A program made the position numbers and the translations under genes. A stretch of 64,000 nt of DNA, from contig BDDD01002682.1 of NCBI GenBank assembly GCA_001972305.1, positions 1-64,000 of the forward strand, in the 5' to 3' direction. The notes beneath the pieces were generated by a model that was not told the DNA's origin, did no database searches, and was given only the letters and a program-made list of their open reading frames with translations. Origin of the DNA: Cephalotus follicularis. Taxonomy: Eukaryota > Streptophyta > Magnoliopsida > Oxalidales > Cephalotaceae. Of the stretch, positions 20,307 through 54,499 are shown piece after piece (the first letter of the stretch is position 1; each line of letters begins with the position of its first letter).

Positions 20307-20318
20307 GCTCTGATACCA
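20307..20318 (-). other. Primer-binding site of Gypsy V (initiator Met tRNA)
   Basis: On the minus strand TGGTATCAGAGC lies three bases inside the 5' LTR end at 20322. It is complementary to the 3' end of plant initiator Met tRNA, the usual primer for these families. Confidence 0.9.
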
Positions 20319-20321
20319 CTC

Positions 20322-22482
20322 TGTCACACCACGTTTTCCAAGAGGACAACATTAAAGCGGTAGGGCAATCATCACAACATAATTCAGCTTATGCGATTTA
20401 CGTAAAATCAAAACTTTCAATAGCGGAAGCAAAAACATAAAATAAGTTGAATTTAAATATGTATCATGCATCCCATACTACGTGATACCCCAAAAGATTA
20501 TATAAAAACCCAACATCAAAGTCGATCGCCCGTAAACGAAGCGTGATAATACAGTACAAAATGAAATAAACCACGACATCCATTAATACATGACAGATAT
20601 AAAATCCACGTTACAATAATCCAATTAACATAGTCATTGTTCATTAATCCAGTACATAAAATAAGAGAACCAATTCGGTCTTCTCCTTAAGTCTCCTTGC
20701 GTGCTCCATATCAAATTCCACTCCATCAATCTGTTACAGTATGGGTTAGCCTTTGTCCTCACTCGTCTAAGTGAATAAACTCATAAATGCAGTTCGAGGT
20801 ACTTGATCAAATATATTTGTTTAAAATATATTACTCCGTTCTCAGGTTGTGATAAGTTTAAACTTAAAATAATATAGTTTGATTGTGTAACCAATCCTTT
20901 AAACATTTCTCCGTCTTTGGAAAATACTTTCCCCGATAATTTGAAAACATATATATATTTGGCGAATATACATTTTCGTACAATTAATGATTATAATAAT
21001 CATACAAGCTTTTCAAAATGGTTAACACTTTTAGCAATCAACCACAATGCAATTCATAGTTCAGTAATAATGCAAACATATGCTCAGAATGCACCTAGGA
21101 TCATTTCTAGAGTCGTTTCGGGTCTAACGGGTCCCATTCGAACGAAACTTTTCCAAACCGGGGCATAAGCATCGATGCTTATCCCCAGGGCATCGACGTC
21201 TTTACCCTGAGGCGCAACATTTCGTGCAGTTATTCCCAGGAGTTTTTGGACCAAAGACATCGATGCTTTTCCAAAGACGTCGATGTCTTTATTATACCAG
21301 AAGATATCGGCTCGCGAATCTTGATTCTAGGGGGAAGAATCTGGCCCTTAAACCTTCATATAAACAAATCTCACCCTCTCAAAGTGTAAGGCATGCTACT
21401 GGTTATCAGAATGTGTAACCAGAACATCAATTTATGAATAAAACATGCAACCCCAAGTGGGCAATTCAGCATCTGCAGTAAACACTACTGCTCTACAAAT
21501 ACCTAGAAAAGGCGTTGATGTTTTATTCAAACATCGACGTCTTCCGCATTCACACAAGAAGGCAACGATGTCTTTATGTAGGCGTTGACATCTATTCAGC
21601 CCAAAACATCATTTCCATGGTTTTAACATACCATGTCATTACGAAACCATCCATTACACAAACCAGTTCAAATATTCATGTAAATTACACGTGCATGGCT
21701 ACTCCGTACATCACAACAGTCATCACAACAAATACAGAGATTTCAATTCATCCATTAACATGCAATTCATCCATTAACATGCAATTCATCAATGGCATTT
21801 CATTATCTTAAAACTCAAAATGCATGTATAACTGGCAGGAATCCTCCTTTTCTCTCTTGTTTCACATGCACCCATACACACCCGTGCTCTCCTCACTCTC
21901 CTTCCTGTTTTGACTCCTTCCCCTTCCTTTTCTACAGGTTGCAGAAGGAGATGACACATCTTTTTTGCTTGCACCAGGTGAGGAACACGTTTTGGAGCAT
22001 GCCTGGTAACACTCCAGCATGATCAACACGTCGCATAGTGCATGTCAAGATGCCTGGATGATGCCTCAAAAGTTGACCATTGCATGTTATTCTGTCAGTG
22101 TATAACGTAAAAAATGTTCTTTTCAAAGACGTCGACGTCTTTGCTTAGACGTCGATGTCTTTTCCCTCCTTCATACGAGGGTGTCGATGTCTTCGTCTAC
22201 ATCGACGTGCATGTACATGCATTCACGTGAGCCCTTGTTCCCATAGGCGTCGACGTCTTTCCAAAGGCATCGACGCGTTTATCCCAAAACTGCACTGCTT
22301 TGCTTCTAATTGCATCATTTAACATTTCTTTAACATTTCAAACATTCCCTCATCCAAAATCCAACCTTTTAAATTTTGGAAAGCATCATCCAAGTCAGAA
22401 ATTATGCCATTCTCATTAATTCAATAATAAGATTACATCTTAAAACGAAATATTACAATAACGAAAATCCTGGGTGTTACAT
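20322..22482 (-). repeat. 5' LTR of Gypsy V
   Basis: 2161 bp, from TGTAACACCCAGG at 22482 to GTGTGACA at 20322 (minus strand). Homologous to 12834-15614 but shorter. It contains the shared 20-bp LTR block in reverse (20748-20767, one mismatch) and a 20-bp perfect palindrome CAAAGACGTCGACGTCTTTG at 22124-22143. Confidence 0.9.
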
Positions 22483-32200: not shown

Positions 32201-32396
32201 TGAGGAGGGATCTGAAAAGGATCAACCCAATAAGACAACATCTCTAACACCTTCTAATTAATAAGATTCTTCACAAAAACCTTGGCATAGAAAAGAAGAA
32301 CTAAAAAACCCCCCCAAAAAAATATATATACGTATACTATAAATGAAAAAATAGCATAAAAGACAAAATTAAGAGTCTAATTTTTTTTTTAAAAAA
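29211..32396 (+). other. CACTA 5' noncoding region
   Basis: About 3.2 kb without a recognisable gene. A CT-rich stretch (29480-29530) followed by a possible splice acceptor (TTTCAG near 29584) looks like a transcribed leader with an intron, as expected upstream of the transposase. A T-rich run lies at 30055-30075. The rest is AT-rich sequence with short open frames that show no family signature. I see no captured host gene fragment I can name. Confidence 0.5.
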
Positions 32397-34924
32397 TGTC
32401 ACGCCCCCGTTTCCACAACAGACAACATATAAAGCGGTAAGGCAATCAACATAACATAATTCAGCTCATGCGATAAAATGAATAACAAAAATCCTTCGAT
32501 AGCGGAAGCAATAACATAAATGAGCCGAATTTCAACATGCATCACACATCCCATACTACGTGATGCCCAATAGGTTTATAATAAAATCCAACATCATTGT
32601 CGATCGCCCATAAATGGAGCGTGAAAATACAGTACAATATAGCAATTAACCCCTGTTACAATAATCTGGTTTACATAATTATTGTTCAATTACTCAATAC
32701 ATAAAATAAGAGAAATAACTAAGTCTTCTCCTTAAGTCTCCATGCGTGCTCCATATCATATCCCACTCCATCAATCTGTTACAGTAGGGGTTAGCCTTTG
32801 TCCTCACTCGGCTAAGTAGAAACGTTTATGTATACAGTTCAAGGTCAAGGTAATGCGTATCATGAATGAATGCATAGTGATGCAGTATGACATGTAATTT
32901 TCTCAATAATTATATCTCCGTATATACATATAAAAATGTATGCATGTTCATAGTACAGTATAACCTCATAAGTTATCAACACAAGCAATAGATATGTTCC
33001 AAAAGGAACCAGACAAACCAGTCGTCCGGACCGTCACCACCTCCTAGCCCCAACGTCAAGCACTCTTACCCCATCACCGTTTGCGAACGGTTTTGGAGCA
33101 AGTCCTCCGAATGTTGCTTAGCACGGCGGCTAAACCAACAGGCACAAGCATTGCACAGTACAAATCAAGCAATAAAATATAATTACTTGATCAAATATAT
33201 TTGTTTAAAATATATTTGTTTAAAATATATTACTCCGTTCACAAGTTGTAATAAGTTATAAAACTTAAAACAATACATTTGAATTGCGTAATCAATCCTT
33301 TAAAACATTTCTCCGTCTTTGGAAATACTTCCCCACGTTATTTCGAAAATATATAAAGTCATAAGTTGGTAAATATACATTTTCGTACGATAATGATTTT
33401 GATAATCATACAAGCTTTTCAAAATGGTTAACACTTTTTAGAAATCAACCATAATGCAATTCATAGTAATAATGCAAACATATGCTCAGAATGCACCTAG
33501 GGTTGTTGGTAATTAACCTAGGCCTATCACCTTCTCTAACGGTCCAAATTATGCTATAACAGTCGGCTGTTTCCACATAACAGCCGGATGGATCCTTGAG
33601 TCAGTTGACTGTTCTTCCCCAACAGTCGGTTGGTTCATCACGAGCAATAGGCAGTCGACTGCCTTCCTTCGACAGTCGACTGTTCTGGGTAACATCCCAT
33701 GCGCAGTCGACTGTTATTACATGCTAGTTGACTGGATGTTTGAGTAGTCGACTGCTTTACTTAAACAGTCGACTGCTCTGGGCTGGACAGTGCCAGCAAT
33801 CCATTTCTAAATCCATTCAACAAGCAATTGAAACATGTTCACACGTATTCAAACCTCAGAATATCACCAGTGATCATATCATGGTCTAAAACACAATTCA
33901 ATTCATGCATTATTCACTATTTTTATCATAATTCAAATGACATCCAAACATGGCATTGCATGAAAACCATTCCAATTTTCCATTCAAAATTCAGTTAGCA
34001 TGCCAGGTTATCTATCAACAATAACCACAACAACAATACAGGAATCCATAGCCAAAACAACTGTACCATTCATTTATAATATCATTGTCCTTAAACTCAA
34101 AATGCATGCATAAATTCTCTACCACTACCCCTACCTTTGATTTCAAGTTAGAAATCAAAAGTTCACCTCTTTGTGTCTCCTTTCCAGTGTCTTTGAGCCT
34201 CCCAGTAGCTCCAAGAACAGTCCTCTAGCTCCAATTCCAAGCTCCAAGCTTCAACAATGGTGAACCTCTCACTTCCTCACTATTTCTCTCTTAATTCCCC
34301 ACTATCTTGACTCTAAAACTCTCTGGTTCTTTCTTATCAAATTGTAGAGTGAGATAGAGACGAAGGAAAAGAACATTTATGCAGTTCTCTCACCCACAAT
34401 TCGTTTTCCTAGCATTAAGAGATTTCTCTCCCATTTACACTTGCATGCACAAACACTTGTCATTCTTTCTCTTCCTTTCTGTTCTTCCAGGTCCTGGCAT
34501 GGTGGTGCATGCCCAACATGTTTCATCTATGATCAGATGGCACCTGCAAGATATCTTATCAATGGCTGCATGTGATCTCGTCACATGTAGATAAAACAGG
34601 GCACGATCCAGTCGGCTGCCTTTCCCTGGCAGTCGGCTATTCGCCTGGCAGTCTGTTGCCAAGTGTCACGACAGTTGGCCAGTCGACTGGTTCATCACGC
34701 CAGTCGACTGCCTCTCCCTTTAGTCCAACAGTCAGCTGGTACATCGCACCAGTCGGCTGTCCAAGCCAAAAATCCCCACAATTATATTTAGAATCACACT
34801 TCTAAATGTTCTAAGTTAACTTGAATTCAAGATATCAACCAGGAAATTCGCCTTTTATTAATTCTAGGTAAAGGTTACATCGAGGATTACAATAATACAT
34901 GAAGTTGAATTTCTGGGCGTTACA
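32397..34924 (-). repeat. Solo LTR of Gypsy family Z inside CACTA
   Basis: 2528 bp from TGTCACGCCCCCG to GGGCGTTACA, flanked by the 5-bp duplication AAAAA (32392-32396 and 34925-34929). Its reverse complement is homologous to the Z LTRs (36980-39557, 57919-60510) along the full length, including the CAGTCGACTG-type repeat clusters (here 33557-33780 and 34611-34755). The shared 20-bp LTR block lies in reverse at 32793-32812. Because the target is a run of A, the boundary is uncertain by a base or two. Confidence 0.9.
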
Positions 34925-36979
34925 AAAAAATACAAATATATATGAGTAAAAGTCCAATAGAAGAAGGATGACATACCTTCCCTAGGGACATCCAGTGGAA
35001 AACCATGATGGGGTTTATGAAGAATAAACAAAATTGTAGAATTAGGGTTTTCAGTGATGTGAGTTTCTCATTCTATGTTTGAAAAAGTACCTACGGTTCT
35101 TCTATTGCTTATGGCATTTCAAAAGAAAAAAAAAAGAAAAGGAGACAAAAATCTAAAGGAAAACACAAATATTCATTGTCCATTTGGTGTAATAGATGTA
35201 ATAATATACAGAACATGTCATGAATGTAAGTTGCATACTTGTGTCTGAATGTACTCTATTTTTTGTGACATGTCCAGTGACACGCATAGGGAATATGTCA
35301 GGCGATCGGAGTTGGATGCGGAGACGGGTTTTGAATCACAGATTGAATCCTGAATTTGTAAAGGGTGTGAACGACTTTATACAGTTTGCCTTTGCAAATG
35401 AGCAGTTTGTTTACGAGGGCAAAATAAAATGCCCTTGCAACAAATGCAAGCTATTGAAGTTTGGGACTAAGGAAGAAGTTAAGTACCATCTGTTCAGTAA
35501 AGGGTTTAGCCTTGAAAATACAAGGTGGGACCAACATGGAGAAATGTCTCAGAATCATAGAGTAAATAGAAATGTCATGTATGAAAGGGATGGTCCGAGT
35601 AATCCTTGGAGGGATTTTGTTACCGATGCAGGAGGTTTTCAGTATGATCTTAATCAAGAGGATACAAGGCCTGAAGATCCTAATCCTGCTGCACAGAAAT
35701 TTTATAGTCTTCTGCGGGAGGCAGATGAGCCATTAATTGGTGGTAGTGAAAAAATGACTAAGTTATCCACCATGATGTGAATATTGAATTTAAAGTCTAG
35801 ATTTATGATTCCAGAGGCAGGAACAACAGAGATTTTAATAGTGAATAGTATCTTACCAGAGGGTACGATGCTTCCCAAAAATTATTACCATTTGAAGCAA
35901 CATATGAAGGCCTTGGGATTAGGTTATGAAAAAATTGATGAATGTTTGAATGACTGTGTGTTATATTACGGGGAGCACAGGTCGTTGCATGAATGTCCGA
36001 CATGTAATCATCCAAGGTATAAATAATCACGTAAAAACCCTGTACCCTACAAGGTGTTGCGTTACTTTCCTCTTACACAAAGATTACAGAGACTATTTTA
36101 CTCAAACAAAACTGCTGAATATATCCGTTGGCATGCAAGTACAGTCCATAATGAGATGAAGGAGGAACCTGTGATGGTGCACCCTGCTGACGGTGTAGCT
36201 TGGAAGCACTTTGATCGTACCTTTCAAGAATTTGTTGCGGAAGTTGGGAATGTCAGACTGGGTTTGGCTACAAATGGGTTTAGTCCATTTGGGGTTAGCA
36301 GTAAGACCTGCTCTTGTTGGACAGTCTTTGTTTTTCCGTACAATATCCCGCCTTGGATGTGTATGACGAAACCTTTCATGTTTTTGACATTGATGATAGA
36401 GGGCCCAAGAGGCCCTAGGAAGGATATTGATGTGTATTTACGGTCACTCATTGACGAGTTACAGATTTTATGGGAAAATGGGGTTGAGACCTAGGATGCA
36501 TCACGTAACGAAAAATTTAATATGAAGCCAGCATTACTGTGGACAATTAATGACTTCCCGGCATACGGGATGTTGTCTGGATGGACTACACACAGTGGTT
36601 TTGCTTGCCCTTGTTGCATGCAAGGCACGAAGGGTTTTTGGTTGACTAATGGTGGAAAACATTCATGGTTTGACTGTAATCGTAAGTTCTTGCCTGTAGA
36701 TCATCCATTCAGGGGTGACAGGAAAGGGTTATTGAAGGGGAGACGTGAAAGAAATGTTGGTGTGGAACGGTTGCAGGGTGATCGAATTGCATCCCAATTG
36801 TCATAGTTTCATCAAGTTCAATTTGGCAAAGGCGTAGATTCGCAGAAGTTGCCTAGATATGGAACTCATCACAATTGGACAAAACTCAGTATATTTTTTG
36901 AGCTTCCATATTGGAGTGCATTACTTATCCATCACAAATTGGATGTCATGCACATTGAGAAAAATGTCTTCAACAATTT
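34925..36979 (+). pseudogene. CACTA TNP2-like transposase, first part
   Basis: The likely start is ATG at 35295 (MSGDRSWMRRR), giving a Transposase-associated domain (about residues 1-75) with CPCNKC. The TNP2 transposase domain follows: LPKNYYHLKQHMKALGLGYE, NDCVLYYGEH, CPTCNHPRYK, LRYFPLTQRLQRLFYS, ADGVAWKHFD, NVRLGLATNGFSPFG, PYNIPPWMCM, KDIDVYLRSLIDELQ, LWTINDFPAYGMLSGW, CPCCMQGT, then FFELPYWSALLIHHKLDVMH. One frame runs throughout, with in-frame stops at 35778, 36024, 36492 and 36804, so it is a pseudogene. It is cut at 36979 by Gypsy Z and resumes at 60511. The 34925-35294 stretch is upstream noncoding sequence. Confidence 0.9.
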
Positions 36980-37138
36980 TGTAATGCCCGTAATTTTCAC
37001 GTATTGTAATTTCGCAATATAAATGTACTTTATGTGTGGAATTAATAAAATGATTGTTTTCTCCGAAATTGATGATGTCGATGTCGATATTAAGTCAATT
37101 ATGTACTTAGAAGCGTAATTACTTGGTAAGTTACTGGA

Positions 37139-37292
37139 GGCAGTCGACTGGCACAGAAGATCAGCCGACTGGATGGCTGCGTGTGGAAGCAGTCGACTGG
37201 TGGGATGAACCAGTCGACTGGCCAAATTGTCGTGACACTTGGCAACAGACTGCCAGGCGAACAGCCGACTGCCAGGGAAAGGCAGCCGACTG
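37139..37292. repeat. Promoter-proximal TCGA palindrome cluster in the Z LTR
   Basis: At least six copies of CAG[TC]CGACTGG within 154 bp, spaced about 20-50 bp (for example 37141, 37191 and 37211). The form CCAGTCGACTGG is a perfect 12-bp palindrome. The same cluster recurs in the 3' LTR (58079-58230) and, in reverse, in the solo LTR (34611-34755). Confidence 0.8.
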
Positions 37293-38118
37293 GATCGTGC
37301 CCTGTTTTATCTACATGTGACGAGATCACATGCAGCCATTGATAAGGTATCTTGCAGGCGCTGTCTGATGATAGATGAAACGTGTTAGGCATGCACCACC
37401 ACGCCAGGACTTGCAAGAACAGAAAGGGAGAGAAATAATGACAAGTGTGTGTGCATGCAAGTGATAGTGAGAGGAATGGGCTCTTATGCCATTCAAAAGG
37501 GGTTAAAGGAGAGAAGACTGCATAAATGCTTCCTGCCTTAGTCTCTCTCACCCTAAATCCTGATAAGAGAGAACCAGAGAATTTGAGAGTCAAAATAGTG
37601 GGAAATTAAGAGAGAAATAGTGAGGAAGTGAGAGGATCCTCCATTATTAAGCTTGGAGCTCGGATTGAAGCTACTGGACGGTTCTTGGAGCTACTAGGAG
37701 GCTCAAGTATACTGGAAAGGAGACACAAAGAGGTGGACTTTCGATTTCTAACTTGAAATCAAAGGTAGGGGAAAATAGTAGAGAATTCTATGCATGCATT
37801 TTGAGTTTAGAGTAATGATATTATAAATGAATGGTATAGTTGTTTTGGCTGTGGATTCCTGTATTGTTGTTGTGGTTATTGTTGATAAATAACCTGGCAT
37901 GCTTACTGAATTTGAATGGAGAATTGGATTGGTTTTCATGCAATGCCATGTTTGGATTTCATTTGAATCATGATGAAATGGAGAATAATGCATGAATTGA
38001 GTTATGTTTTAGACCAAGTTATGATTTCTGGTGATGTTCTGAGATCTGTATACGTGTGGTTAAGTCCCAATTGCGTTTTGGTTGGATTTAGAAGTGGATT
38101 ACTGGTACTGTCCAGCCC

Positions 38119-38345
38119 AGAGCAGCCGACTGTTTAAGTAAAGCAGTCGACTACTCGAACATCCAGTCGACTGTCATGTAAGAACAGTCGACTGTGCATG
38201 CGTTTTTACCCAGACCAGTCGACTGTCGAAGGAAGGCAGTCGACTGCCTAATGCTCGTGATGAACCAGCCGACTGTTGGGAAGGAACAGTCGACTGACTC
38301 AAGGATCCAGCCGACTGTTATGGAAAATCAGTCGACTGTTACTGC
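38119..38345. repeat. Downstream TCGA palindrome cluster in the Z LTR
   Basis: About ten copies of CAG[TC]CGACT[GA] in 227 bp, spaced roughly 15-30 bp, located after the promoter/leader block and before the R-U5-like part. Repeated in the 3' LTR (59060-59285) and the solo LTR (33557-33780). Confidence 0.8.
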
Positions 38346-39560
38346 AAAAATTGGATCTTTAGAGAACGTGATAGGCCTAGGTTCTTAGGTGCATTATGAG
38401 CATATGTTTGCCCTGCATTTGAACTACTACTATACTGTGAATTGCATTATGGTTGATTTCTAAATGTGTTAACCATTTTGAAAAGCTTGCATGATTATTT
38501 CAATCATTATTGTACGAAAATGTATATTTGTCAACATATGAATTTTTATATTTTTGAAATGATTGGGGAAGTATTTCCAAAGACGGAGAAATGTTTTGAA
38601 AGATTGATTATACAATCAAATGCATTGTTTTAAGTCTTATAACTTATCACAACTTGTGAACGGAGTAATATATTTTAAACAAATATATTTGATCAAGTAA
38701 TTATACTTTATTGCTTGACCTGTACTGTGAAATGCTTGTGCCTATTGATTATTAGCCGCTGTGCTAATAACCTGTTGATTACTTAGCCACTGTGCTAGTA
38801 ACTTGCTGTTGGTTTAGCCGCCTTGCTAAGCAACATATGGAGGACTTGCTCCAAAACCATTCGCAAACGGGGATGGGGTAAGAGTGCATGACGTTGGGTC
38901 CAGGAGGTGGCGACGGTTATGACGACTTGTTTGTCTGGTTCCTTTTGGGTCATACTTATTGCTTGTGTTGATATAACTTATGAGGTTATACTTGTACGGT
39001 GATCATGCATATATTTTTATATGTATATACGGAGCTACGATTATTGAGAAAATTACATGACATACTGCATCACTATGCATTCATTCATGATACGCATTAC
39101 CTTTGACCTGAACTGTATACATAAACTTTTCTACTTAGCCAAGTGAGGAAAAAGGCTAACCCCCTACTGTAACAGATTGATGGAGTAGGTTTTGATATGG
39201 AGCTTGCAAGGAGGCTTATGGAGAACACTACGATGTTTCTCTTATTTCTTGTATTGAGTTAATGAACAATGACTATGTAACCGGGTTATTGTAACATGGG
39301 TTTATTTTGTTATCTCGTACTGTTTTATCACGCTCCGTTTATGGGCGATCGACAATAATGTTGGGTTTTGTTATAAACTTGTTGGGCATCACGTCGTATG
39401 GGATGCGTTATGTATGTTTAAATTCAGCTCATTTATGTTATTGCTTCCGTTATCGAGAAATTTATTTATCGGTAAGTTTGCATGAGCTGGATTTTATCTT
39501 GTGTTGATTGCCTTACCGCTTTATATGTTGTCTTAAATTGGAAAACGGGGTGTGACAACG

Positions 39561-39594: not shown

Positions 39595-41108
39595 TGTCAC
39601 CGCCCGGTATTTTCCTGAATGTAATATTTCGATTTATGATGTAATCTTAATCTTGATTTTATGAGAATGTTGAGTTTTTGAACTCAAAGGACGCTTGCAA
39701 ACCCTAATTATGGTCTTGGAAATGGAATGTGTATGTCAAAGCTTGAAACGACACTGTTTTGGGATAAAGACATCGACGTCTTTGTTACTGTTTGGGGTTT
39801 TCTTCATCCAATGATACGAAACGATCCCGATTCCTGTTTGAGTGCATTTGAGCATATGTATGCATTGCATATGCACTGTTTACTGTCTGATTTTACACTG
39901 TTTGTGAATTGTGTATGATTTCTAAAGTATTGATATTTAGAAATGCATATATGAACTCGAAATATAATATTTTGAGTATGAAAATATGTATTAGTTAAAT
40001 AACGTATTTTCGACCGAACTGATAAACAATTTACACTACTGAAACTGTTTATTGATGTTTTCTACTGAAATTGTCTATTTTCAATGTTGTCATTTTGGAA
40101 ACACTTTGGAAAACAGCTGCCTGTTGTCGATGTAATTGATCATTACTGTTTACTGTACAGTTACGGTTTAAATTTACTGTTTGCTATGTGAATTGCTATG
40201 TGTTTATGTTTGAGCTACTAGTTGCATGGCGGAGGTTGCCAGCGCCGACTAGTGGTAGGGTTGTACCTAGGGGCCAGGAGCATGGCTAGGTGACTCACTG
40301 TATTGTTGCCTCGCTCGGTTGTCCGAAGTGGGGACCGGAGTGAGAGTGTAGCATGGGGCCAGGAGTTGGCGGCGCTATACATACTGTTGTTGTGGTCCTA
40401 TGTGGACATACTGACTGTTGTTGTGGTCCTATGTGGACATACTGTACTGTACTGTTTATTGGCCCTTTACGGACATTACTGTGATTGTTGATGTAGCCCT
40501 TGCCGGGTTACTACTGTACTGTTACTGTATACATATATTTCTTATATATGTAACACCGATATTTTACTGTATTGCTATACGTATATATATTTTCATATAT
40601 GTATAAACCGGGTCTCCACTGCACTGCATCATTTATGCATTCATATCATGACATGCATTATGTTGATCCCGAATTACTGTTATGACTTAGCCGAGTGAGG
40701 ACAAAGGCTAACCCCCTACTTTACAGATTGATGCAGTGGACTGTTGGGTCGGCATGGAAAAGATCAAGCTATCATATTCTTGACTTTATTTATCATCCCA
40801 TTTTGTATTGAACCCATGTGGATTATGGTTTTCGGATGCGCCATTGTTATAGTATTGTTTCTGAAGGAATTTTGTATTGTACTGTAATTCACGCTCTGTT
40901 TTATGGGCGATTAACTCTGATGACTTGTATTTGGGTAGCGTGCGGTATGGGACGCACGTTACGTGTTTACAGCTTATGAACTTGTTATGCTTCCGCAACT
41001 GACAGTTTATTTAAAAAGTTTTAATTTGCATGGTTTTACATGAGCTGTATTTTATGTTGATTGCCTTTACCGCTTTAATGTTGCGTTCTCTATAAACGGG
41101 GTGTGGCA
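39595..41108 (+). repeat. First LTR of Gypsy W
   Basis: 1514 bp from TGTCACCGCCCGG to GGGTGTGGCA. Clearly shorter than the other two W LTRs but colinear at both ends. It contains the shared block GCCGAGTGAGGACAAAGGCT at 40690-40709. Confidence 0.88.
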
Positions 41109-41112
41109 ACAG

Positions 41113-41124
41113 TGGTATCAGAGC
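41113..41124 (+). other. Primer-binding site of Gypsy W
   Basis: TGGTATCAGAGC, four bases after the first LTR. The same site is repeated after the second LTR at 48550-48561, so both internal regions start like a normal element. Confidence 0.9.
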
Positions 41125-41219
41125 ATTTTCCATATATGCTTAGCTAGGATGCTTTCCTTGGCAATTAATGAATTGTTTTCTTAAAGTCGTGACTGACCGT
41201 CAATCTTCTTATAGGAAAA

Positions 41220-42370
41220 ATGGACCGAAGAAGAACACGTGCTAGGGCTAGAGCCGTCGGAGCTAATGCCCCGGAAGAAACTAATGTTCCGCAAGGGATG
41301 GATATGCCCCAGGATGACAGAGATCCGATGACTCGGATCGCGGACTATTTCCAGCAGCAAATGGCCTTTAACCGGGCTAGTGCGGAGGAAATGCGCCAAT
41401 ACCATGCGCAAGCCCGACCGCAGCATAGAGCTCCCGACCACTGCCCGGGGGAGGATAGTTTTGGGAGAGATATTGAGAAGTTAATGAGGCTGAATCCACC
41501 CAGCTTCAAGGGGGAACTGGATCCTACGATTGCTGAGAGATGGCTGCAGGACCTAGAGAAGATCTTTCAGGTGATGAACTGTGCTGATGATCAAAAGTTG
41601 AGATTTGCAGTGTACCGCCTATGGGGTGAGGCCACTCATTGGTGGGAAATGGTTAGAGCGAAGTGGGAATCACAGGGACTGGATAACACTTGGGACCGAT
41701 TCCAGACAGAGTTCATGGAGACATATGTTCCATACATTGAGCAAGAGCGACGAGAGGCTGATCTCTTGGAGTTACGGCAGGGAGAGATGACGGTTGCAGA
41801 ATATCAGGCAAAGTTCATGGAGTTGGCCAGACATTCACCGTATCTGGTAGCTGATGAAGCAAAGAAGATACGGAGGTTCTTGAAAGGATTGCGACCGGAT
41901 CTTCGGTCGAGGATTAGAGCCATGGAGCTGAGGACTTATGTAGAGGTTGCTCAGAAAGCTAGACTGCTGGAGACGATATCTAGTGAGGACCGGGCTGAGA
42001 GAGCTCGCGCGAAGGAGAGTAAGCAGGGTCCTACATAGTCCCGACGACATCGTCAAAGTGGCAAGACGGTGGTTCTCCGACGAAGTCGTCGAAGAACAAG
42101 TCTCAGCAGACTGCTTCTCAGGGTACTCCCAGCCAGGGGAGTAATGCTAGATATGGAGGATGCTTTTACTGTGGTCGTACCGGCCACCAACAGAAAGACT
42201 GCTGGAGGTTCAATGGCTGGTGTTTGAGGTGTGGGGCACCGGGTCATACGGTGAAGGACTGTCCGAAGAGTTCTGCTACAGCGCCTACTGGGCTGGGGAG
42301 CAGCAGCGGTGTGGCTGCGGGACCATCGCAGAGGAGGGATATCGGCAAGGGCATCGCAAAAGGTAGAATT
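41220..42370 (+). pseudogene. Gypsy W gag and zinc-knuckle remains (first copy)
   Basis: Starts MDRRRTRARARAVGANAPEE, shared with the V and Z gag regions. The retrotransposon gag domain is evident around AERWLQDLEKIFQVMNCADD, LWGEATHWWEMVRAKWES and FMELARHSPYLVADEAKKIR. Two CCHC knuckles follow at about 42160-42260 (CFYCGRTGHQQKDC and CLRCGAPGHTVKDC). Gag assembles the particle and binds RNA. The segment is broken, like the rest of the element. Confidence 0.9.
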
Positions 42371-42439
42371 TTTGTACTTGCTCAGACTGAGGTTCCATAG
42401 TCGACTTCTGTTGTTGGAGGTACTCTGTATTTATATGGT

Positions 42440-45400
42440 TATTCTGCTAGAGTACTGATGGATTCTGGTGCTACACACTCTTTTATATCTGCACATTTTG
42501 CATCTTGCTTAGATGTCACCCCTGACTACTTGTCTTATACACTTGATGTGAGTACACCAACTGGGACTTCTATGTATACTGACTCGGTATATAGGAGTTA
42601 TGAGATGTCTATGGCAGGCATTCCTTTATATGCATATTTGATTGTACTGCCTATCCCTGACTTCGATGTGATATTGGGGATGGATTGGCTATTGGCGCAC
42701 CGTGCCCGTATGGATGGCTACCATAAGACTGTGGATTCTTGTCTGCCCGACGGGATGACTTTTCAGTTCAAGGGAGACAAGGGATTCTCTACACCGATAA
42801 TATCTTTTATCCGAGCATCGAGATACCTGGAGAAGGGATACGAGGGATATTTGGCTTATGTTATTGATCGAAGGAAGGAGAAAGGCTTGAGCTTGGAGGA
42901 AATTCCAGTTGTGTGCGAATTTCCGGATGTGTTTCCTGATGACTTGGGGTCCTTACCGCCCAAGAGGAGTATGGAGTTCGTTATTGATCTTCTTCTGGGA
43001 ACGGCTCCTATCTCTAAATCACCCAATCGGATGGCTCCGGCTGAGTTGCGAGAGCTGAAGCTACAGTTACAAGACCTGATTGATAAGGGTTTTTTAAGAC
43101 CCAGTGTTTCTCCATGGGGTGCACCGGTACTGTTCGTCAAGAAGAAGGATGGGTCGATGAGACTCTATATCGATTACCGAATGTTGAACAAAGCAACTAT
43201 CAAAAATAAATATCCTTTACCCCACATTGAGGATCTGTTTGATCAGTTGCAAGGATCGAGGGTGTTTTCTAAGCTTGATTTGAGATCGGGTTATCACCAG
43301 TTGAGATTAAGGGAAGGGGACATTGAGAAGACTGCCTTCCGAACACAGTATGGTCACTACGAGTTTTTGGTGATGCCTTTCGGTGTTACCAATGCACCAG
43401 CAACTTTCATGTCATTGATGAATGACATATTTCGACCTTACCTGGACCAGTTTGTTGTGGTATTTATAGATGATATACTGGTATATTCGAGGAGTGGGGA
43501 GGAGCACACTCGACACCTGAGGATGGTATTGCAGGTTATTAGAGAGCACCGATTGTATGCCAAGTTCGGCAAATGCGAGTTCTGGCTTGACCATGTGATC
43601 TTTCTCGGTCACATAGTATCTGGGGAAGGCTTGACGGTGGATCCGTCAAAGACTGAAGTTGTGAGAGACTGGCCGCAACCAAAGAACGTGACGGAGGTGC
43701 GCAGTTTTCTTGGTTTGGCGGGATATTACCGGAGGTTTATCCAGAATTTTTTGAGGATAGCTGAACCTTTGACCAGACTGACCCAGAAGAAAACTCTTTT
43801 CGTCTGGGACGAGGACTGCGAGGCTAGTTTTTGTGAGCTGAAGGACCGGTTAATTTCCGCTCCTATCTTGGCATTACCTGAAGGTAATGAAGGCTTCGCA
43901 GTATACAGTGATGCATCGGGTAAGGGTTTGGGCTGTGTGTTGATGCAGCGAGGCAGAGTGATTGCATATGCCTCGAGGAAGCTTAAACCGTACGAAGAAA
44001 ACTACCCAACTCATGACCTTGAGCTTGCAGCTATCATCTTCGCCCTTCAGAATTGGAGGCATTACCTTTATGGGGCGCAGTTTGAGGTCTTCACCGATCA
44101 CAAAAGCTTGAGGTATCTATTTTGCCAGGATACACTGAACATGAGACAGCGCAGGTGGGTAGAGTTCTTCAATGATTATGATTGCAGTGTACAGTATCAC
44201 CCGGGGAAGGCAAATGTGGTTGCTGATGCCTTGAGCCGCAAGGCTATGCTTGCTAGTGCGATGGTATCGCAATGGAAGATGTTGGAAGACTTCCAAGAAT
44301 GGTCTCCATTCAATGAGTCACCGGGGATCTTTCGAGTAGACATGCGGGTTGAACCAGTGTTACTGTATCACATCAAAGATGCACAACCACACGATCCTGA
44401 ATTGCAGCGGATTTGAGAGAATTTGGATTCGGAGTCTATTTTCAGAGTGCACGAAGACGGTATTATGAGATATCGAGGACGTGTATGCCTTCCAAACGAT
44501 CCTAGAGTGAAGGATGAACTACTCTGCGGAACTCATAAATCCCTGTACAGTATTCATCCGGGTAGCACGAAGATGTATCAAGACATGAAGAAGTGTTACT
44601 GGTGGCTTGGCATGAAGCGGGAGATCGCTGAGTATGTGGCAAGGTGTTTGACTTGCCAGACAGTTAAGGCCGAGCACCAGAGATCGGCGGCTTTGCTGCA
44701 GCCTTTGCCCATTCCAGAGTGGAAGTGGGAACATGTTACGATGGAAGTCGTTTCGGGTTTTCCTCTGACTCGGAACCGTCATAATTCCGTGTGGGTCATT
44801 GTGGATAGACTCACCAAATCAGCGCACTTTCTACCTACACACGTTACTGATTCTGCGAGCAAGCTGGCTCGGCTGTATGTGAAGGAGATAGTGAGGCTAC
44901 ACGGGGTTCCAGTCAGGATCGTATCTGATAGAGATGCTATCTTCACTTCCAACTTTTGGAAGTGGTTTTAGTCAGCCTTCGGGATGAAGCTGAACTTGAG
45001 TACTGCCTTCCACCCTCAGACCGATGGGCAGTCTGAGCATACCATCCAGACCTTGGAGGATATGCTACGGGCTTGCGTAATTGACTTTGCTGGTACCTGG
45101 GAGGATCACATTCCTCTGATATATTTTTCTTACAATAATAGCTATCACTCCAGTATCGGCATGGCACCGTTTGAGGCACTGTATGGGAGGAAGTGCAGAT
45201 CCCCTGTGTGTTGGGAGGAGGTCGGGGAACGACCTTTACTCGGGACTGAGTTAGTGGAGGAAACTTCGGAGAAGATCAGGACAATCAAGAAGAAGCTGCT
45301 TGCTGCTCAGAGTCGGCAGAAGAGCTACACTGATAGTGTGAAGAGAAGACCTCTGATCTTCAACGTAGGTGATCACGTGTTTTTGAAGGTATCACCATGG

Positions 45401-45781
45401 AAGGGCGTGCAATGGTTCGGGAAGAAGGGCAAATTAGCTCCTCGCTACATTGGTCCTTTTGAGATTTTGGAGAGAGTCGGGGAGGTAGCTTATCAGCTTG
45501 CCTTACCTCCTGTACTATCAAACGTGCACGACGTCTTCCACATATCTATGCTAAGGAGAAATATCCCGGACCCGTCACATGTCCTGGATTATGATACTGT
45601 TCCTGTACAGGATGATCTATCTTATGAGGAGTTGCCTGTGCGGATTCTCGATCGGAAGACGCAGACCTTGAGGAACCGAACCATCTCCATGGACAAGGTT
45701 CAATGGCAGTTTCACAAACCTGATGAGGCAACTTGGGAGTGTGAGGAGGACATCCGAGAACGCTACCCGCACTTGTTCTAG
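42440..45781 (+). pseudogene. Gypsy W pol remains (first copy)
   Basis: The order is protease ([11 protein letters not shown], then [16 protein letters not shown]), reverse transcriptase ([30 protein letters not shown], catalytic [11 protein letters not shown] near 43450-43490), RNase H ([30 protein letters not shown]), integrase with H2C2 finger ([28 protein letters not shown]), core ([30 protein letters not shown]) and a chromodomain-like tail ending YPHLF. This is the best preserved Gypsy pol in the window, but a few breaks remain. Confidence 0.92.
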
Positions 45782-45826
45782 TATTGTGTTAATTTCGAGG
45801 ACGAAATTTCTTAAAGGAGGGGTGGA

Positions 45827-48545
45827 TGTAATGCCCGGTATTTTCCTGAATGTAATATTTCGATTTATGATGTAATCTTAAACTTGATTTTATGAGAATG
45901 TTGAGTTTTTGAACTCAAAGGACGCTGGCAAACCCTAATTATGGTCTTGGAAATGGAATGTGTATGTCAAAGCTTGAAACGGCACTGTTTTGGGATAAAG
46001 ACATCGACGTCTTTGGAAATACGTCGACGCCTATGAGGATTGAGGTACACGTGAATGCATGGGCATGCACGTCGACATTGGGAGAAGGCATCGACAGCTT
46101 CTTACAAAAATGGAAAAGACATCGACGCCTAAATAAAGACGTCGATGCCTTCGTAAAGAATGTCTGTCACGTTTTTCACTGACAGAGTAACATGCAGTGG
46201 GGGATCTTTGGGGGCTTTATAGATGCCTCTACATGTGCATGGTGACGTGTTGATCATGCTGGTGGGTTGCCAGGAATGCCCAAAACGGGCCTCTCACATG
46301 GCACATGCAAGGGACTCACCATCCTCACATGCAACCTGCAAGAAAAAGAAGGATGAAACAAAGGGGAAAATGCAGAATCTGGGAAAAAGGGGGAGAGAGA
46401 ACGAGAGTACCCATAAAATGCAAGGAGAATAATGTTAGAGGGGGAGCCATCTGCATAAGAACAACCCTCTCCACTTCTCTCTCTCGTTTTAGAACACCAA
46501 AGGAAAGAAAAGAAAGGAAACAGTGAGTGTGAGAGCCGCCATTATTGAGCCTGGCTTGAGCTTGGAGCTTGGAGCTTGGAACCACTGGTGCAGCTACTGG
46601 ACGGACCTAGAGGGGCTGCTGGGACCTGTTTGGAAACGAAAAGGGGTTGACCTTCCAGTTCCTAACTTGGAACAATAAGGCAGGGGAAAGCCATACTGTA
46701 AATTCGAGTTTGATATCCATGCATGGTTTATGATTTGGATGTATAAAATGCATGATTCTTGAAATGATATTGTTACTGGATTGATGCCATGATATGCTAG
46801 ATATGTTTTGAGTATCTGCATGTTGGTTTCTTGCCATGAAAACATGTTATTATGCATGATTATGGGTTGTTAAGGCCACTGTTTGATAAGTCGTGAGGTA
46901 GAAGATGACTACTGTTGTAAAAGACATCGACATCTTTTAAATAAACATCGACGTCTTTTTAGTTTTGCCCTGTTAGTGATTGAAAGGGATCGACGTCTAT
47001 GGACAGACACCGACGCCCTAGGCTACCTACCTGGTTTTTGACGTAAGAGACGTCGACGCCTAAGGTTCCTACCTTAACGCGTCGACGCCATCAACAATAC
47101 GCTATCGTTTTAAGGTTCCAGACCTTGAGCGTCGACGCGTATGAAATGGACATCGACGCCTTCTGTGGAAGAACGTGCTGACACTGAGACTTGGACATCG
47201 ACGCCTGATGGAAAAGACATCGACGCCTTTTGGAAAGACATCGACGTCTTGGTTACTATTTGGGGTTTTCTTCATCCAATGATACAAACCGATCCCGATT
47301 CCTGTTTGAGTGCATTTGAGCATATGTATGCATTGCATATGCACTGTTTACTATCTGATTGTATACTGTTTGTGAATTGTGTGTGATTTCTAAAGTATTG
47401 ATATTTAGAAATGCATATATGAACTCGAAATAGAATATTTTGAGTATGAAAATATGTATTAGTTAAATAACGTATTTTCGACCGAACTGATAAACAATTT
47501 ACACTACTGAAACTGTTTATTTTGCTGTTTTCTACTGAAATTGTCTATTTTCAAATGTTGTCATTTTGGAAACATTTTGGAAAACAACTGCCTGTTGTCG
47601 ATCTAATCGATCATTACTGTTTACTATAATGTTACTGTTTAAATTCACTGTTTGCTCTGTGAATTGCTATGTGTTTGTGTTTGAGCTACTAGTTGCATGG
47701 TGGAGGCTGCCAGTGCCGACTAGTGGTAGGGTTGTACCTAGGGGCCAGGAGCATGGCTAGGTGACTCACTGTACTGTTGTCTCGCTCGGTTGCCCGAAGT
47801 GGGGACCGGAGTGAGAGTGTAGCGTGGGGCCAGGAGTTGGCGGCGCTATACATACTGTTGTTGTGGTCCTATGTGGACATACTGACTGTTGTTGTGGTCC
47901 TATATGGACATACTGTACTGTACTATTTATTGGTCCTTTACGGACATTACTGTGATTGTTGATGTAGCCCAGGCCGGGTTACTACTGTAACACCGATATT
48001 TTACTGTACTGTTATACGTATATATATCTTCATATATGTATAAACCAGGTCTCCACTACACTGCATCATTTATGCATTCATATCATGACATGCATTATGT
48101 TGATCCCGAATTACTGTTATGACTTAGCCGAGTGAGGACAAAGGCTAACCCCCTACTTTACCGATTGATGCAGTGGACTATTGGGTCGGCATGGAAAAGA
48201 TCAAGCTATCATATTCTTGACTTTGTTTATCATCCCATTTTGTATTGAACCCATGTGGATTATGGTTTCTGGATGCGCCATTTTTATAGTATTGTTTCTG
48301 AAGGAATTTTGTATTGTACTGTAATTCACGCTCCGTTTTATGGGCGATTAACTCTGATGACTTGTATTTGGGTAGCGTGTGGTATGGGACGCACGTTACG
48401 TGTTTACAGCTTATGAACTTGTTATGCTTCCGCAACTGACAGTTTATTTAAAAAGTTTTAATTTGCATGGTTTTACATGAGCTGTATTTTATGTTGATTG
48501 CCTTTACCGCTTTAATGTTGCGTTCTCTATAAACGGGGTGTGGCA
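45827..48545 (+). repeat. Middle LTR of Gypsy W (mosaic)
   Basis: 2719 bp, preceded by a polypurine tract (AAAGGAGGGGTGGA) and followed by a PBS, so it serves as 3' LTR of the first copy and 5' LTR of the second. Over most of its length it equals the third LTR, but its last tens of bases agree with the first LTR instead. It contains TCGA-core repeats (46000-46155 and 46920-47250) and the shared block at 48127-48146. Confidence 0.9.
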
Positions 48546-50512
48546 ACAGTGGTATCAGAGCATTTTCCATATATGCTTAGCTAGGATGCTTTCCTTGGCA
48601 ATTAATGAATTGTTTTCTTAAAGTCGTGACTGACCGTCAATCTTCTTATAGGAAAAATGGACCGAAGAAGAACACGTGCTAGGGCTAGAGCCGTCGGAGC
48701 TAATGCCCCGGAAGAAACTAATGTTCCGCAAGGGATGGATATGCCCCAGGATGACAGAGATCCGATGACTCGGATCGCGGACTATTTCCAGCAGCAAATG
48801 GCCTTTAACCGGGCTAGTGCGGAGGAAATGCGCCAATACCATGCGCAAGCCCGACCGCAGCATAGAGCTCCCGACCACTGCCCGGGGGAGGATAGTTTTG
48901 GGAGAGATATTGAGAAGTTAATGAGGCTGAATCCACCCAGCTTCAAGGGGGAACTGGATCCTACGATTGCTGAGAGATGGCTGCAGGACCTAGAGAAGAT
49001 CTTTCAGGTGATGAACTGTGCTGATGATCAAAAGTTGAGATTTGCAGTGTACCGCCTATGGGGTGAGGCCACTCATTGGTGGGAAATGGTTAGAGCGAAG
49101 TGGGAATCACAGGGACTGGATAACACTTGGGACCGATTCCAGACAGAGTTCATGGAGACATATGTTCCATACATTGAGCAAGAGCGACGAGAGGCTGATC
49201 TCTTGGAGTTACGGCAGGGAGAGATGACGGTTGCAGAATATCAGGCAAAGTTCATGGAGTTGGCCAGACATTCACCGTATCTGGTAGCTGATGAAGCAAA
49301 GAAGATACGGAGGTTCTTGAAAGGATTGCGACCGGATCTTCGGTCGAGGATTAGAGCCATGGAGCTGAGGACTTATGTAGAGGTTGCTCAGAAAGCTAGA
49401 CTGCTGGAGACGATATCTAGTGAGGACCGGGCTGAGAGAGCTCGCGCGAAGGAGAGTAAGCAGGGTCCTACATAGTCCCGACGACATCGTCAAAGTGGCA
49501 AGACGGTGGTTCTCCGACGAAGTCGTCGAAGAACAAGTCTCAGCAGACTGCTTCTCAGGGTACTCCCAGCCAGGGGAGTAATGCTAGATATGGAGGATGC
49601 TTTTACTGTGGTCGTACCGGCCACCAACAGAAAGACTGCTGGAGGTTCAATGGCTGGTGTTTGAGGTGTGGGGCACCGGGTCATACGGTGAAGGACTGTC
49701 CGAAGAGTTCTGCTACAGCGCCTACTGGGCTGGGGAGCAGCAGCGGTGTGGCTGCGGGACCATCGCAGAGGAGGGATATCGGCAAGGGCATCGCAAAAGG
49801 TAGAATTTTTGTACTTGCTCAGACTGAGGTTCCATAGTCGACTTCTGTTGTTGGAGGTACTCTGTATTTATATGGTTATTCTGCTAGAGTACTGATGGAT
49901 TCTGGTGCTACACACTCTTTTATATCTGCACATTTTGCATCTTGCTTAGATGTCACCCCTGACTACTTGTCTTATACACTTGATGTGAGTACACCNNNNN
50001 NNNNNNNNNNNNNNNNNNNNNNNNNNNNNNNNNNNNNNNNNNNNNNNNNNNNNNNNNNNNNNNNNNNNNNNNNNNNNNNNNNNNNNNNNNNNNNNNNNNN
50101 NNNNNNNNNNNNNNNNNNNNTAGCTCCTCGCTACATTGGTCCTTTTGAGATTTTGGAGAGAGTCGGGGAGGTAGCTTATCAGCTTGCCTTACCTCCTGTA
50201 CTATCAAACGTGCACGACGTCTTCCACATATCTATGCTAAGGAGAAATATCCCGGACCCGTCACATGTCCTGGATTATGATACTGTTCCTGTACAGGATG
50301 ATCTATCTTATGAGGAGTTGCCTGTGCGGATTCTCGATCGGAAGACGCAGACCTTGAGGAACCGAACCATCTCCATGGACAAGGTTCAATGGCAGTTTCA
50401 CAAACCTGATGAGGCAACTTGGGAGTGTGAGGAGGACATCCGAGAACGCTACCCGCACTTGTTCTAGTATTGTGTTAATTTCGAGGACGAAATTTCTTAA
50501 AGGAGGGGTGGA
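48546..50512 (+). pseudogene. Gypsy W second internal copy, with assembly gap
   Basis: Repeats the first internal copy: PBS, gag (48657 onward, same predicted protein), zinc knuckles and protease start up to 49995. Then comes a run of N, then the integrase tail from 50121 to the YPHLF end near 50467 and the polypurine tract. The sequence missing between the two sides corresponds to about 2.9 kb of the first copy, so the N run probably hides most of pol or marks a misjoin. Confidence 0.88.
49996..50120. other. Assembly gap (125 N)
   Basis: A run of 125 N. Left and right edges match positions 42558 and 45435 of the first internal copy, which are about 2876 bp apart there. The gap size is therefore unlikely to be true if the second copy is full length. 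Any reading frame drawn across it is meaningless. Confidence 0.98.
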
Positions 50513-53231
50513 TGTAATGCCCGGTATTTTCCTGAATGTAATATTTCGATTTATGATGTAATCTTAAACTTGATTTTATGAGAATGTTGAGTTTTTGAAC
50601 TCAAAGGACGCTGGCAAACCCTAATTATGGTCTTGGAAATGGAATGTGTATGTCAAAGCTTGAAACGGCACTGTTTTGGGATAAAGACATCGACGTCTTT
50701 GGAAATACGTCGACGCCTATGAGGATTGAGGTACACGTGAATGCATGGGCATGCACGTCGACATTGGGAGAAGGCATCGACAGCTTCTTACAAAAATGGA
50801 AAAGACATCGACGCCTAAATAAAGACGTCGATGCCTTCGTAAAGAATGTCTGTCACGTTTTTCACTGACAGAGTAACATGCAGTGGGGGATCTTTGGGGG
50901 CTTTATAGATGCCTCTACATGTGCATGGTGACGTGTTGATCATGCTGGTGGGTTGCCAGGAATGCCCAAAACGGGCCTCTCACATGGCACATGCAAGGGA
51001 CTCACCATCCTCACATGCAACCTGCAAGAAAAAGAAGGATGAAACAAAGGGGAAAATGCAGAATCTGGGAAAAAGGGGGAGAGAGAACGAGAGTACCCAT
51101 AAAATGCAAGGAGAATAATGTTAGAGGGGGAGCCATCTGCATAAGAACAACCCTCTCCACTTCTCTCTCTCGTTTTAGAACACCAAAGGAAAGAAAAGAA
51201 AGGAAACAGTGAGTGTGAGAGCCGCCATTATTGAGCCTGGCTTGAGCTTGGAGCTTGGAGCTTGGAACCACTGGTGCAGCTACTGGACGGACCTAGAGGG
51301 GCTGCTGGGACCTGTTTGGAAACGAAAAGGGGTTGACCTTCCAGTTCCTAACTTGGAACAATAAGGCAGGGGAAAGCCATACTGTAAATTCGAGTTTGAT
51401 ATCCATGCATGGTTTATGATTTGGATGTATAAAATGCATGATTCTTGAAATGATATTGTTACTGGATTGATGCCATGATATGCTAGATATGTTTTGAGTA
51501 TCTGCATGTTGGTTTCTTGCCATGAAAACATGTTATTATGCATGATTATGGGTTGTTAAGGCCACTGTTTGATAAGTCGTGAGGTAGAAGATGACTACTG
51601 TTGTAAAAGACATCGACATCTTTTAAATAAACATCGACGTCTTTTTAGTTTTGCCCTGTTAGTGATTGAAAGGGATCGACGTCTATGGACAGACACCGAC
51701 GCCCTAGGCTACCTACCTGGTTTTTGACGTAAGAGACGTCGACGCCTAAGGTTCCTACCTTAACGCGTCGACGCCATCAACAATACGCTATCGTTTTAAG
51801 GTTCCAGACCTTGAGCGTCGACGCGTATGAAATGGACATCGACGCCTTCTGTGGAAGAACGTGCTGACACTGAGACTTGGACATCGACGCCTGATGGAAA
51901 AGACATCGACGCCTTTTGGAAAGACATCGACGTCTTGGTTACTATTTGGGGTTTTCTTCATCCAATGATACAAACCGATCCCGATTCCTGTTTGAGTGCA
52001 TTTGAGCATATGTATGCATTGCATATGCACTGTTTACTATCTGATTGTATACTGTTTGTGAATTGTGTGTGATTTCTAAAGTATTGATATTTAGAAATGC
52101 ATATATGAACTCGAAATAGAATATTTTGAGTATGAAAATATGTATTAGTTAAATAACGTATTTTCGACCGAACTGATAAACAATTTACACTACTGAAACT
52201 GTTTATTTTGCTGTTTTCTACTGAAATTGTCTATTTTCAAATGTTGTCATTTTGGAAACATTTTGGAAAACAACTGCCTGTTGTCGATCTAATCGATCAT
52301 TACTGTTTACTATAATGTTACTGTTTAAATTCACTGTTTGCTCTGTGAATTGCTATGTGTTTGTGTTTGAGCTACTAGTTGCATGGTGGAGGCTGCCAGT
52401 GCCGACTAGTGGTAGGGTTGTACCTAGGGGCCAGGAGCATGGCTAGGTGACTCACTGTACTGTTGTCTCGCTCGGTTGCCCGAAGTGGGGACCGGAGTGA
52501 GAGTGTAGCGTGGGGCCAGGAGTTGGCGGCGCTATACATACTGTTGTTGTGGTCCTATGTGGACATACTGACTGTTGTTGTGGTCCTATATGGACATACT
52601 GTACTGTACTATTTATTGGTCCTTTACGGACATTACTGTGATTGTTGATGTAGCCCAGGCCGGGTTACTACTGTAACACCGATATTTTACTGTACTGTTA
52701 TACGTATATATATCTTCATATATGTATAAACCAGGTCTCCACTACACTGCATCATTTATGCATTCATATCATGACATGCATTATGTTGATCCCGAATTAC
52801 TGTTATGACTTAGCCGAGTGAGGACAAAGGCTAACCCCCTACTTTACCGATTGATGCAGTGGACTATTGGGTCGGCATGGAAAAGATCAAGCTATCATAT
52901 TCTTGACTTTGTTTATCATCCCATTTTGTATTGAACCCATGTGGATTATGGTTTCTGGATGCGCCATTTTTATAGTATTGTTTCTGAAGGAATTTTGTAT
53001 TGTACTGTAATTCACGCTCCGTTTTATGGGCGATTAACTCTGATGACTTGTATTTGGGTAGCGTGTGGTATGGGACGCACGTTACGTGTTTACAGCTTAT
53101 GAACTTGTTATGCTTCCGCAACTGACAGTTTATTTAAAAAGTTTTAATTTGCATGGTTTTACATGAGCTGTATTTTATGTTAATTTCCTTTACCGCTTTA
53201 ATGTTGCGTTCTCTATAAACGGGGTGTGACA
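50513..53231 (+). repeat. Third LTR of Gypsy W
   Basis: 2719 bp from TGTAATGCCCGG to GGTGTGACA, next to the leader sequence of element Z. Nearly identical to the middle LTR except close to its end. The shared LTR block lies at 52813-52832. Confidence 0.92.
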
Positions 53232-54480: not shown

Positions 54481-54499
54481 ACAGAGGTTCCGGAGTCTA

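Follow-up and report, generated by a model that had tools for sequence, protein, structure and literature searches.

The closest known kind of sequence to the arrays analysed here is the repeated motif (RM) of Sireviruses, a Ty1/copia group of long terminal repeat (LTR) retrotransposons. According to the sections of the Sirevirus study consulted, RMs are palindromic, CpG-containing words present 8-32 times per element, with a word that differs from element to element, and they cluster in the LTR upstream of the TATA box, with an extra cluster before the env position (PMC2829016). The same sections report RMs as Sirevirus-specific in a Ty1/copia comparison and as having mostly a CGG-CCG core, with a TCGA core in 2 of the 13 RMs listed (Vitis CGGTCGACCG and Tnd-1 ACAATCGATTGT; PMC2829016), and parts of two other papers describe maize Sirevirus palindromes as linked to small RNAs (PMC5311732, PMC10760457). 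Here we analyse clusters of TCGA-core palindromes in the LTRs of Gypsy elements within 64 kb of contig C2682 of Cephalotus follicularis (this whole stretch is referred to as the window), as well as their occurrence across the genome searched (1.58 Gb, 9,746 contigs). An earlier inspection of the window's letters alone (the sequence-only reading) had described such clusters at 37139-38345 and had known of no standard LTR feature of this description, which was wrong, as Sirevirus RMs have been described (PMC2829016). With a probability of roughly 60%, we consider the clusters to be putative cis-regulatory arrays in LTR promoters that are read by a host DNA-binding protein, probably as a dimer.

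Enrichment and dialects of the palindromic words

The main Gypsy elements of the window are designated Z, V and W; from their LTR length, termini and primer-binding site, we take them to be Tekay-like chromoviruses. The 5' LTR of Z bears out the clusters originally described: six of its 16 YAGYCGRCTR sites fall at LTR positions 163-305 and the other ten at 1145-1351. Both V LTRs and two W LTRs (W2 and W3) carry 10-13 sites each of a second word type, at positions similar to those in Z. In Gypsy LTRs, cluster 1 begins at LTR position 163-228 and cluster 2 lies between about 940 and 1550. The claim that every Gypsy LTR carries such clusters holds for most of them: only 1 site is left in the W1 LTR, and 3 are present in each of two X-type stretches with undefined LTR bounds. 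A cluster ahead of a promoter-like region is confirmed for Z only, which has a CATAAATG box at LTR position 543, while TATA patterns gave no box before LTR position 900 in W2 and V2.

Enrichment over dinucleotide-shuffled LTRs, which the sequence-only reading had named as a check, was found in part. Perfect TCGA palindromes in Z and in the Z-like stretch Y are strongly above 500 dinucleotide shuffles. Those in V and W, where the consensus is imperfect, are not above the best of 500 shuffles, and both elements rise above all shuffles once at least 3/4 arm positions must match. Three internal coding regions contain no perfect TCGA palindrome. Genome-wide, with the reversed pattern of each word as control, CAGTCGACTG occurs 197,377 times (939 reversed), CAGCCGACTG 177,392 times (1,330), ACGTCGACGT 21,696 times (950), GCGTCGACGC 73,186 times (121) and GACATCGACGYC 136,369 times (691). 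Summed over these five word types, about 606,000 words stand against about 4,000 reversed, an excess of about 150-fold. This confirms that the clustered palindromes are real and far above chance, and that they extend well beyond the few copies in the window. The Vitis Sirevirus palindrome CGGTCGACCG is not enriched genome-wide (50 versus 191 reversed); the enrichment therefore concerns particular words and not TCGA palindromes generally.

The words fall into two dialects, CAGYCGACTR (dialect 1) and GACRTCGACGYC (dialect 2), each of which is found in both superfamilies. Among Gypsy carriers, dialect 1 is present in Z, Y and two loci outside these elements (L012 and L016), and dialect 2 in W and V. 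Among Copia carriers, represented by three anchored elements, dialect 1 is present in L009 and L038 and dialect 2 in L010. What had been labelled "family-specific" are in fact two dialects, each spread over several families and over both superfamilies, and the greater likeness of copies inside one LTR than of copies from different families holds at the dialect level only. The statement that Copia LTRs lack such clusters fails outside the window, at these three loci; inside it, no complete Copia LTR is defined.

Assignment of these loci to Copia is based on their coding and terminal features. In L009, an LTR pair that is 94.9% identical over the 514 bp covered flanks a copia-type gag (Retrotran_gag_2, E 1e-31), and in L010 a 1,152-bp LTR pair (96.5%) flanks a copia gag with a zinc knuckle (Retrotran_gag_2, E 5.7e-17). 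The LTR in L038 begins right after CATCAAAAAGGGGGAGAT-TG, and after its partner copy in L037 comes what was read by eye as the end of a Copia-like pol (ADILTKP); the short open reading frame (ORF) at this pol end has no Pfam match. The polypurine tract (PPT) GGGGGAGATTG, whose letters we take to be Sirevirus-type, is found at L009 9478, L010 3849 (minus strand) and L038 77. In Sireviruses the attachment site, with AT and TG, is conserved and linked to the PPT according to the sections consulted (PMC2829016), and L009 and L010 combine a terminal PPT and AT-TG attachment site with a copia gag. Sites occupy positions 177-511 of the first L009 LTR, with a TATA box at 564, and positions 160-551 of the L010 LTR, with a TATA box at 656; in these 2 of the 3 anchored Copia LTRs, about 45-95 bp separate the end of the array from the TATA box downstream. 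Two more LTRs lie behind GGGGGAGATTG, in L009 (PPT 2779, minus strand) and L025 (PPT 6093, minus strand). They contain no dialect-1 sites and 0 and 3 dialect-2 sites, respectively, so arrays are absent from some such Copia families.

When array segments were masked for the motif and compared with reference elements (n=94, E 1e-5), 27 matched Gypsy references, 12 matched Copia references and none matched both. What the superfamilies share is therefore the words, their spacing and their within-array polarity, and not recognisable flanks, although a distant homology between Gypsy and Copia arrays is possible. Segment-based counts exclude L074-L076. The array loci come mostly from one contig (C1) and were picked from hit lists, so that their family diversity is not that of a random sample; the initial set of 20 stretches includes two on C1 that were picked after hits had been seen, the rest are spread across contigs, and one is all N.

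A second dialect-1 cluster is located upstream of an ORF matching Transposase_32 in L009 (7490-8885; E 7e-10, below the curated cut-off) and in L012 (5893-6931; E 9e-18). This ORF lies where Sireviruses keep their env-like ORF, and the second cluster may be an internal promoter.

Spacing, polarity and constraint within arrays

Neighbouring sites keep a preferred distance. Among the dialect-1 sites sampled, 294 adjacent pairs lie within 150 bp of each other; 206 of them are 19-22 bp apart and none is closer than 19 bp. With similar-spacer pairs removed, 24 of 72 retain this distance (26 of 74 with slightly different spacer ends). For dialect 2, 75 of 222 pairs are 19-22 bp apart and 3 are closer than 19 bp, with 14 of 109 at 19-22 bp after deduplication. 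The same distance recurs in the anchored sets, both in Gypsy (dialect 1, 23/37 and 7/16; dialect 2, 13/27) and in Copia (dialect 1, 14/21; dialect 2, 3/7). The natural reading of a 20-21 bp spacing is two helical turns. Periodicity outside the 19-22 bp pairs gave p values of about 2.5e-4 for dialect 1 and 0.012 for dialect 2, uncorrected for the several periods tried.

The arrays are also polarised. Asymmetric dialect-1 variants, with C at position 4 or A at position 10, nearly always point in one direction within an array: 30 of 35 segments are pure, and 143 of 148 asymmetric sites follow the majority of their own segment, with 5 against. This count covers the 35 of 94 segments that hold at least two asymmetric dialect-1 sites, some sites being counted twice through edge overlaps. 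The directions indicated by position-4 and position-10 variants agree in 25 segments and disagree in 3. A strict count for dialect 2 found 8 of 11 segments pure (41 sites versus 4). Z, Y, W and all three anchored Copia loci have the same prevailing polarity with respect to the LTR, and V is mixed. When arrays were oriented by direct homology to four window LTRs, sites in 14 loci could be placed: 39 had one polarity, 5 had the opposite one, 3 were mixed, and a further 198 sites could not be oriented. Propagating orientation further via masked homology gave near parity (CAGCCGACTG 48 versus CAGTCGGCTG 39, TAGTCGACTG 25 versus CAGTCGACTA 22) and was judged unreliable; polarity was therefore scored inside segments. 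A universal RNA-wobble strand rule, based on the better antisense folding of eight clusters and on tolerated changes that, in Z, in W and in the LTRs of the anchored Copia elements, keep antisense-strand pairing, was dropped because of loci with the opposite polarity relative to the LTR (L012, L016 and L032).

The words themselves are constrained. In 96 BLAST alignments of up to 93% identity, each with at least three dialect-1 sites, motif identity was 0.943-0.970 across five identity bins, compared with 0.760-0.928 for other letters; this comparison was made for dialect 1 only. CpG dinucleotides were retained at 464 of 497 motif positions versus 471 of 797 elsewhere. The central CpG is unusually well retained, an observation that bears on the methylation-sensitive regulatory sites suggested as one possibility by the sequence-only reading. 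Across 112 deduplicated sites, appreciable variation is confined to core positions 4 and 10, and each of the other eight core positions deviates in at most 2 sites, within the limits that a one-mismatch filter sets on detectable change. Outside the core, avoidance is mirror-symmetric: only 1 of the 112 sites has C at -2, 3 have T at -1, 8 have A at +1 and 7 have G at +2. At flanks 1-8 there is no complementary covariation in 113 deduplicated dialect-1 sites (z between -1.4 and 0.2), and core positions 4 and 7 are non-Watson-Crick in 42 of these 113 sites, with a double change in 2. Mirror-symmetric preferences without flank covariation therefore fit protein recognition of a fixed dyad-symmetric sequence and not selection for pairing.

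A candidate regulatory role and its alternatives

Of the three explanations offered by the sequence-only reading, binding sites for a host or element protein are the best supported by these sequence patterns, with a host protein favoured. Each unit, of about 14 bp and with dyad symmetry, would be recognised by a host protein with sequence specificity, which probably binds it as a dimer. With most units two helical turns apart, adjacent dimers could sit side by side along the same face of the helix without colliding, possibly binding cooperatively, and their binding would probably drive LTR transcription. Because both dialects are common to Gypsy (Tekay-like) and Copia (Sirevirus-like) elements, the reader is most likely one or more host proteins and not the product of one family.

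As to which host protein this might be, every consensus site holds RYCGAC on one strand, in agreement with the C-repeat/dehydration-responsive element (CRT/DRE) motif (G/a)(C/t)CGAC of barley CBF1, as quoted in the part of PMC3602543 consulted. Since both RYCGAC and the tolerated letters match the CBF/DREB motif, a CBF/DREB-like factor of the AP2/ERF family is the first candidate reader, and is offered as a lead only.

Several observations weigh against this interpretation. In Gypsy LTRs, cluster 2 is a long way downstream from where transcription presumably starts, and the TATA pattern found no box after the array in the L037/L038 LTR. More than half of the motif-masked segments (55/94) match neither reference set, so the dialect split between superfamilies is known only at anchored loci, which include three Copia elements. 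The constraint is partly confounded, as BLAST may anchor on the repeated motif; it persists in the 80-90% identity bins, where alignments are safer. Off-phase spacings occur at 27-29 bp (dialect 1) and 45-50 bp, and when all dialect-1 pairs are used a period near 7 bp scores equal or higher; evidence that units keep strict helical phase over distances longer than 20-21 bp is weak, and such phasing is not established. Polarity relative to the LTR is opposite to that of Z in L012, L016 and L032, and L029, L052 and L053 also lean towards this opposite polarity by homology. Finally, a monomeric CBF/DREB (AP2) site would not explain the palindromic arms and flank preferences.

The alternative that survives best, though we regard it as unlikely, is that array blocks were swapped between Copia and Gypsy LTRs via recombination or template switching. 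The V element (12834-22481) is a mosaic: in coding sequence it is nearer to Z (87%; W, 79.6%), but its LTR array region matches that of W (77%) and has the W dialect. Arrays can therefore move as blocks, at least among Gypsy families, whose LTR control regions seem to have been swapped. However, the lack of any motif-masked segment matching both superfamilies argues against such exchange between Copia and Gypsy, and the explanation would account for the origin of the arrays, not for their function.

Less probable is that the palindromes are RNA or DNA hairpin modules, pairing within or between units and feeding or regulating small-RNA silencing. For each of the eight clusters tested, folding on either strand beats the average of 60 shuffles, with antisense stronger in 8/8 (for example, W cluster 2 with z -3.7 sense and -9.2 antisense; weakest, L009 sense with z -1.7), and maize Sirevirus palindrome regions are described as small-RNA hotspots in parts of PMC5311732 and PMC10760457. 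Better folding is, however, largely automatic for repeated palindromes, so small-RNA effects may result from the sites rather than explain them. In addition, core positions 4 and 7 are often unpaired, and other single core changes are nearly absent; repeated palindromes pair with themselves automatically. Because flank covariation is absent, hairpin selection was rejected as the main driver, and RNA hairpins, one of the possibilities offered by the sequence-only reading, are disfavoured as the cause.

We rate slightly lower again the possibility that the reader is an anti-silencing or regulatory protein encoded by an element and co-evolving with the sites, as VANC does, with other elements having copied the sites. 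Dense short motifs in noncoding arrays, with dialects that differ between related families, resemble the targets of VANC as described in the part of PMC5735166 consulted, and the ORF matching Transposase_32 in L009 and L012 lies downstream of the second cluster. Against this stand the two dialects common to two superfamilies and the finding of only gag-pol type domains at E <=0.01 in the subset of Gypsy ORFs searched. Neutral amplification of a 20-21 bp tandem unit through slippage is very improbable, because spacers are widely diverged while words and CpGs are not and because the spacing mode recurs across two dialects and two superfamilies, even though the near-uniform polarity is what head-to-tail duplication gives and the 28 and 49 bp spacings resemble unit arithmetic.

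Returning to recognition by a host protein, we tentatively propose a further step, which we hold at less than even odds: one host protein, or a pair of paralogues, could serve as a shared transcriptional handle of both LTR-retrotransposon lineages. Copia and Gypsy would then have built their arrays independently, amounting to several hundred thousand polarised sites at two-turn spacing, and dialect switching would mark factor turnover or escape from a repressor. If one host factor does read both superfamilies, the copy number of both would be tied to a single host regulator, one that should be recoverable with a short DNA bait. The palindromic motifs considered special to Sireviruses would then be one case of a more widespread convergent solution, and what has been interpreted as small-RNA hairpins could be a side effect of protein-binding sites. 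The roughly 0.6 million exact sites in this one genome would also be a potential sink titrating the host factor.

As far as searched, what is new is that such arrays are present in Gypsy LTRs, that both superfamilies have the same dialects, and that the arrays follow rules of spacing and polarity. Among the matches listed from the open-licence literature (titles and abstract openings), none concerned such arrays in Gypsy LTRs or their sharing between superfamilies, and the matches listed for the exact word included no transposon title. The main text of an article on LTR structure (PMC3601003) has no word starting with "palindrom".

Window architecture and related systems

The retrotransposons and CACTA-type transposon content of the window fit a plant genome. 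Gypsy element Z makes up most of the right half of the window, and its interior is interrupted by W-type elements carrying three LTR stretches. The LTR ends are GTGTGACA in Z and V and GTGTGGCA in W, with TGGTATCAGAGC within a few bases after. The coding regions searched contain gag, aspartyl protease, RVT_1, RNase H and integrase, with a weak chromodomain in the W copies. The W elements (39602-53231) follow the order LTR-internal-LTR-internal-LTR and include a 99.9% identical 3.1-kb repeat (45435-48542 and 50121-53228), an arrangement that looks like unequal recombination between adjacent copies.

Table 1. Positions of LTRs, site clusters and associated features in the window.
Feature	Position	Strand	Remarks
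Z 5' LTR	36979-39558	+	95.6% identity with 57918-60511
Z 5' LTR, site cluster 1	37141-37292	+	
Z 5' LTR, site cluster 2	38123-38338	+	
Z second LTR	57918-60511	+	
Stretch inside second Z LTR	58080-58231	+	site scan
Stretch inside second Z LTR	59063-59278	+	site scan
Z internal region (Gypsy gag-pol)	53232-57917	+	perfect TCGA 10-mer palindromes, 0
Y LTR-like stretch	32395-34760	-	Z-like, about 86-88% identity; outer bounds by eye
Y dialect-1 clusters	34609-34759; 33560-33775	-	5 sites; 6 sites
V LTR, dialect 2	about 20322-22481	-	clusters 22130-22275 and 21170-21539; total 10 sites; mixed polarity
V second LTR, dialect 2	about 12834-15615	-	clusters 15263-15388 and 14060-14480; total 10 sites
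W first LTR (W1), internal deletion	39602-41105	+	1 site remains
W LTR, dialect 2	45827-48546	+	clusters 46002-46147 (4 sites) and 46946-47246 (9 sites)
W LTR copy in 99.9% identical repeat, dialect 2	50513-53231	+	clusters 50688-50833 and 51632-51932
Solo LTR-like stretch, dialect 2	10614-12160	+	7 sites, 6 in 11694-11882; start as in the sequence-only reading

Host factors acting on LTRs have a precedent in ONSEN/ATCOPIA78, whose LTRs carry heat-response elements; there, as proposed for the arrays described here, sites for a host stress factor within the LTR drive transcription. ONSEN/ATCOPIA78 differs in having few sites, in one family, with another factor and motif. The arrays resemble the CRT/DRE in that RYCGAC is present in every consensus site and the tolerated bases agree with the published degeneracy, as given in the part of PMC3602543 consulted. 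Unlike the sites described here, the CRT/DRE is non-palindromic. To our knowledge, no report describes a need for 20-21 bp arrays in CRT/DRE function.

The VANC targets of VANDAL elements, as presented in the part of PMC5735166 consulted, are similar in combining a dense short motif in noncoding transposable element DNA with dialect shifts among relatives and tandem-repeat dynamics. They differ in that their motif, YAGTATTAY, is non-palindromic and is read by a protein of the same DNA transposon (PMC5735166); the words described here do not match it in sequence. The likeness is greatest to Sirevirus RMs, with which the arrays share a clustered palindromic word repeated at least 8 times per element and, in the Copia elements L009 and L010, a cluster that lies ahead of the TATA box within the upper LTR half; Gypsy cluster 2 does not fit this placement. 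Spacing and polarity rules are absent from the sections of the Sirevirus study consulted, and the core here is YCGR/TCGA and not CGG-CCG, Tnd-1 being likewise exceptional in the table of that study (PMC2829016). The other difference from Sirevirus RMs is one of distribution: the words described here also fill Gypsy LTRs, in two dialects that are common to both superfamilies.
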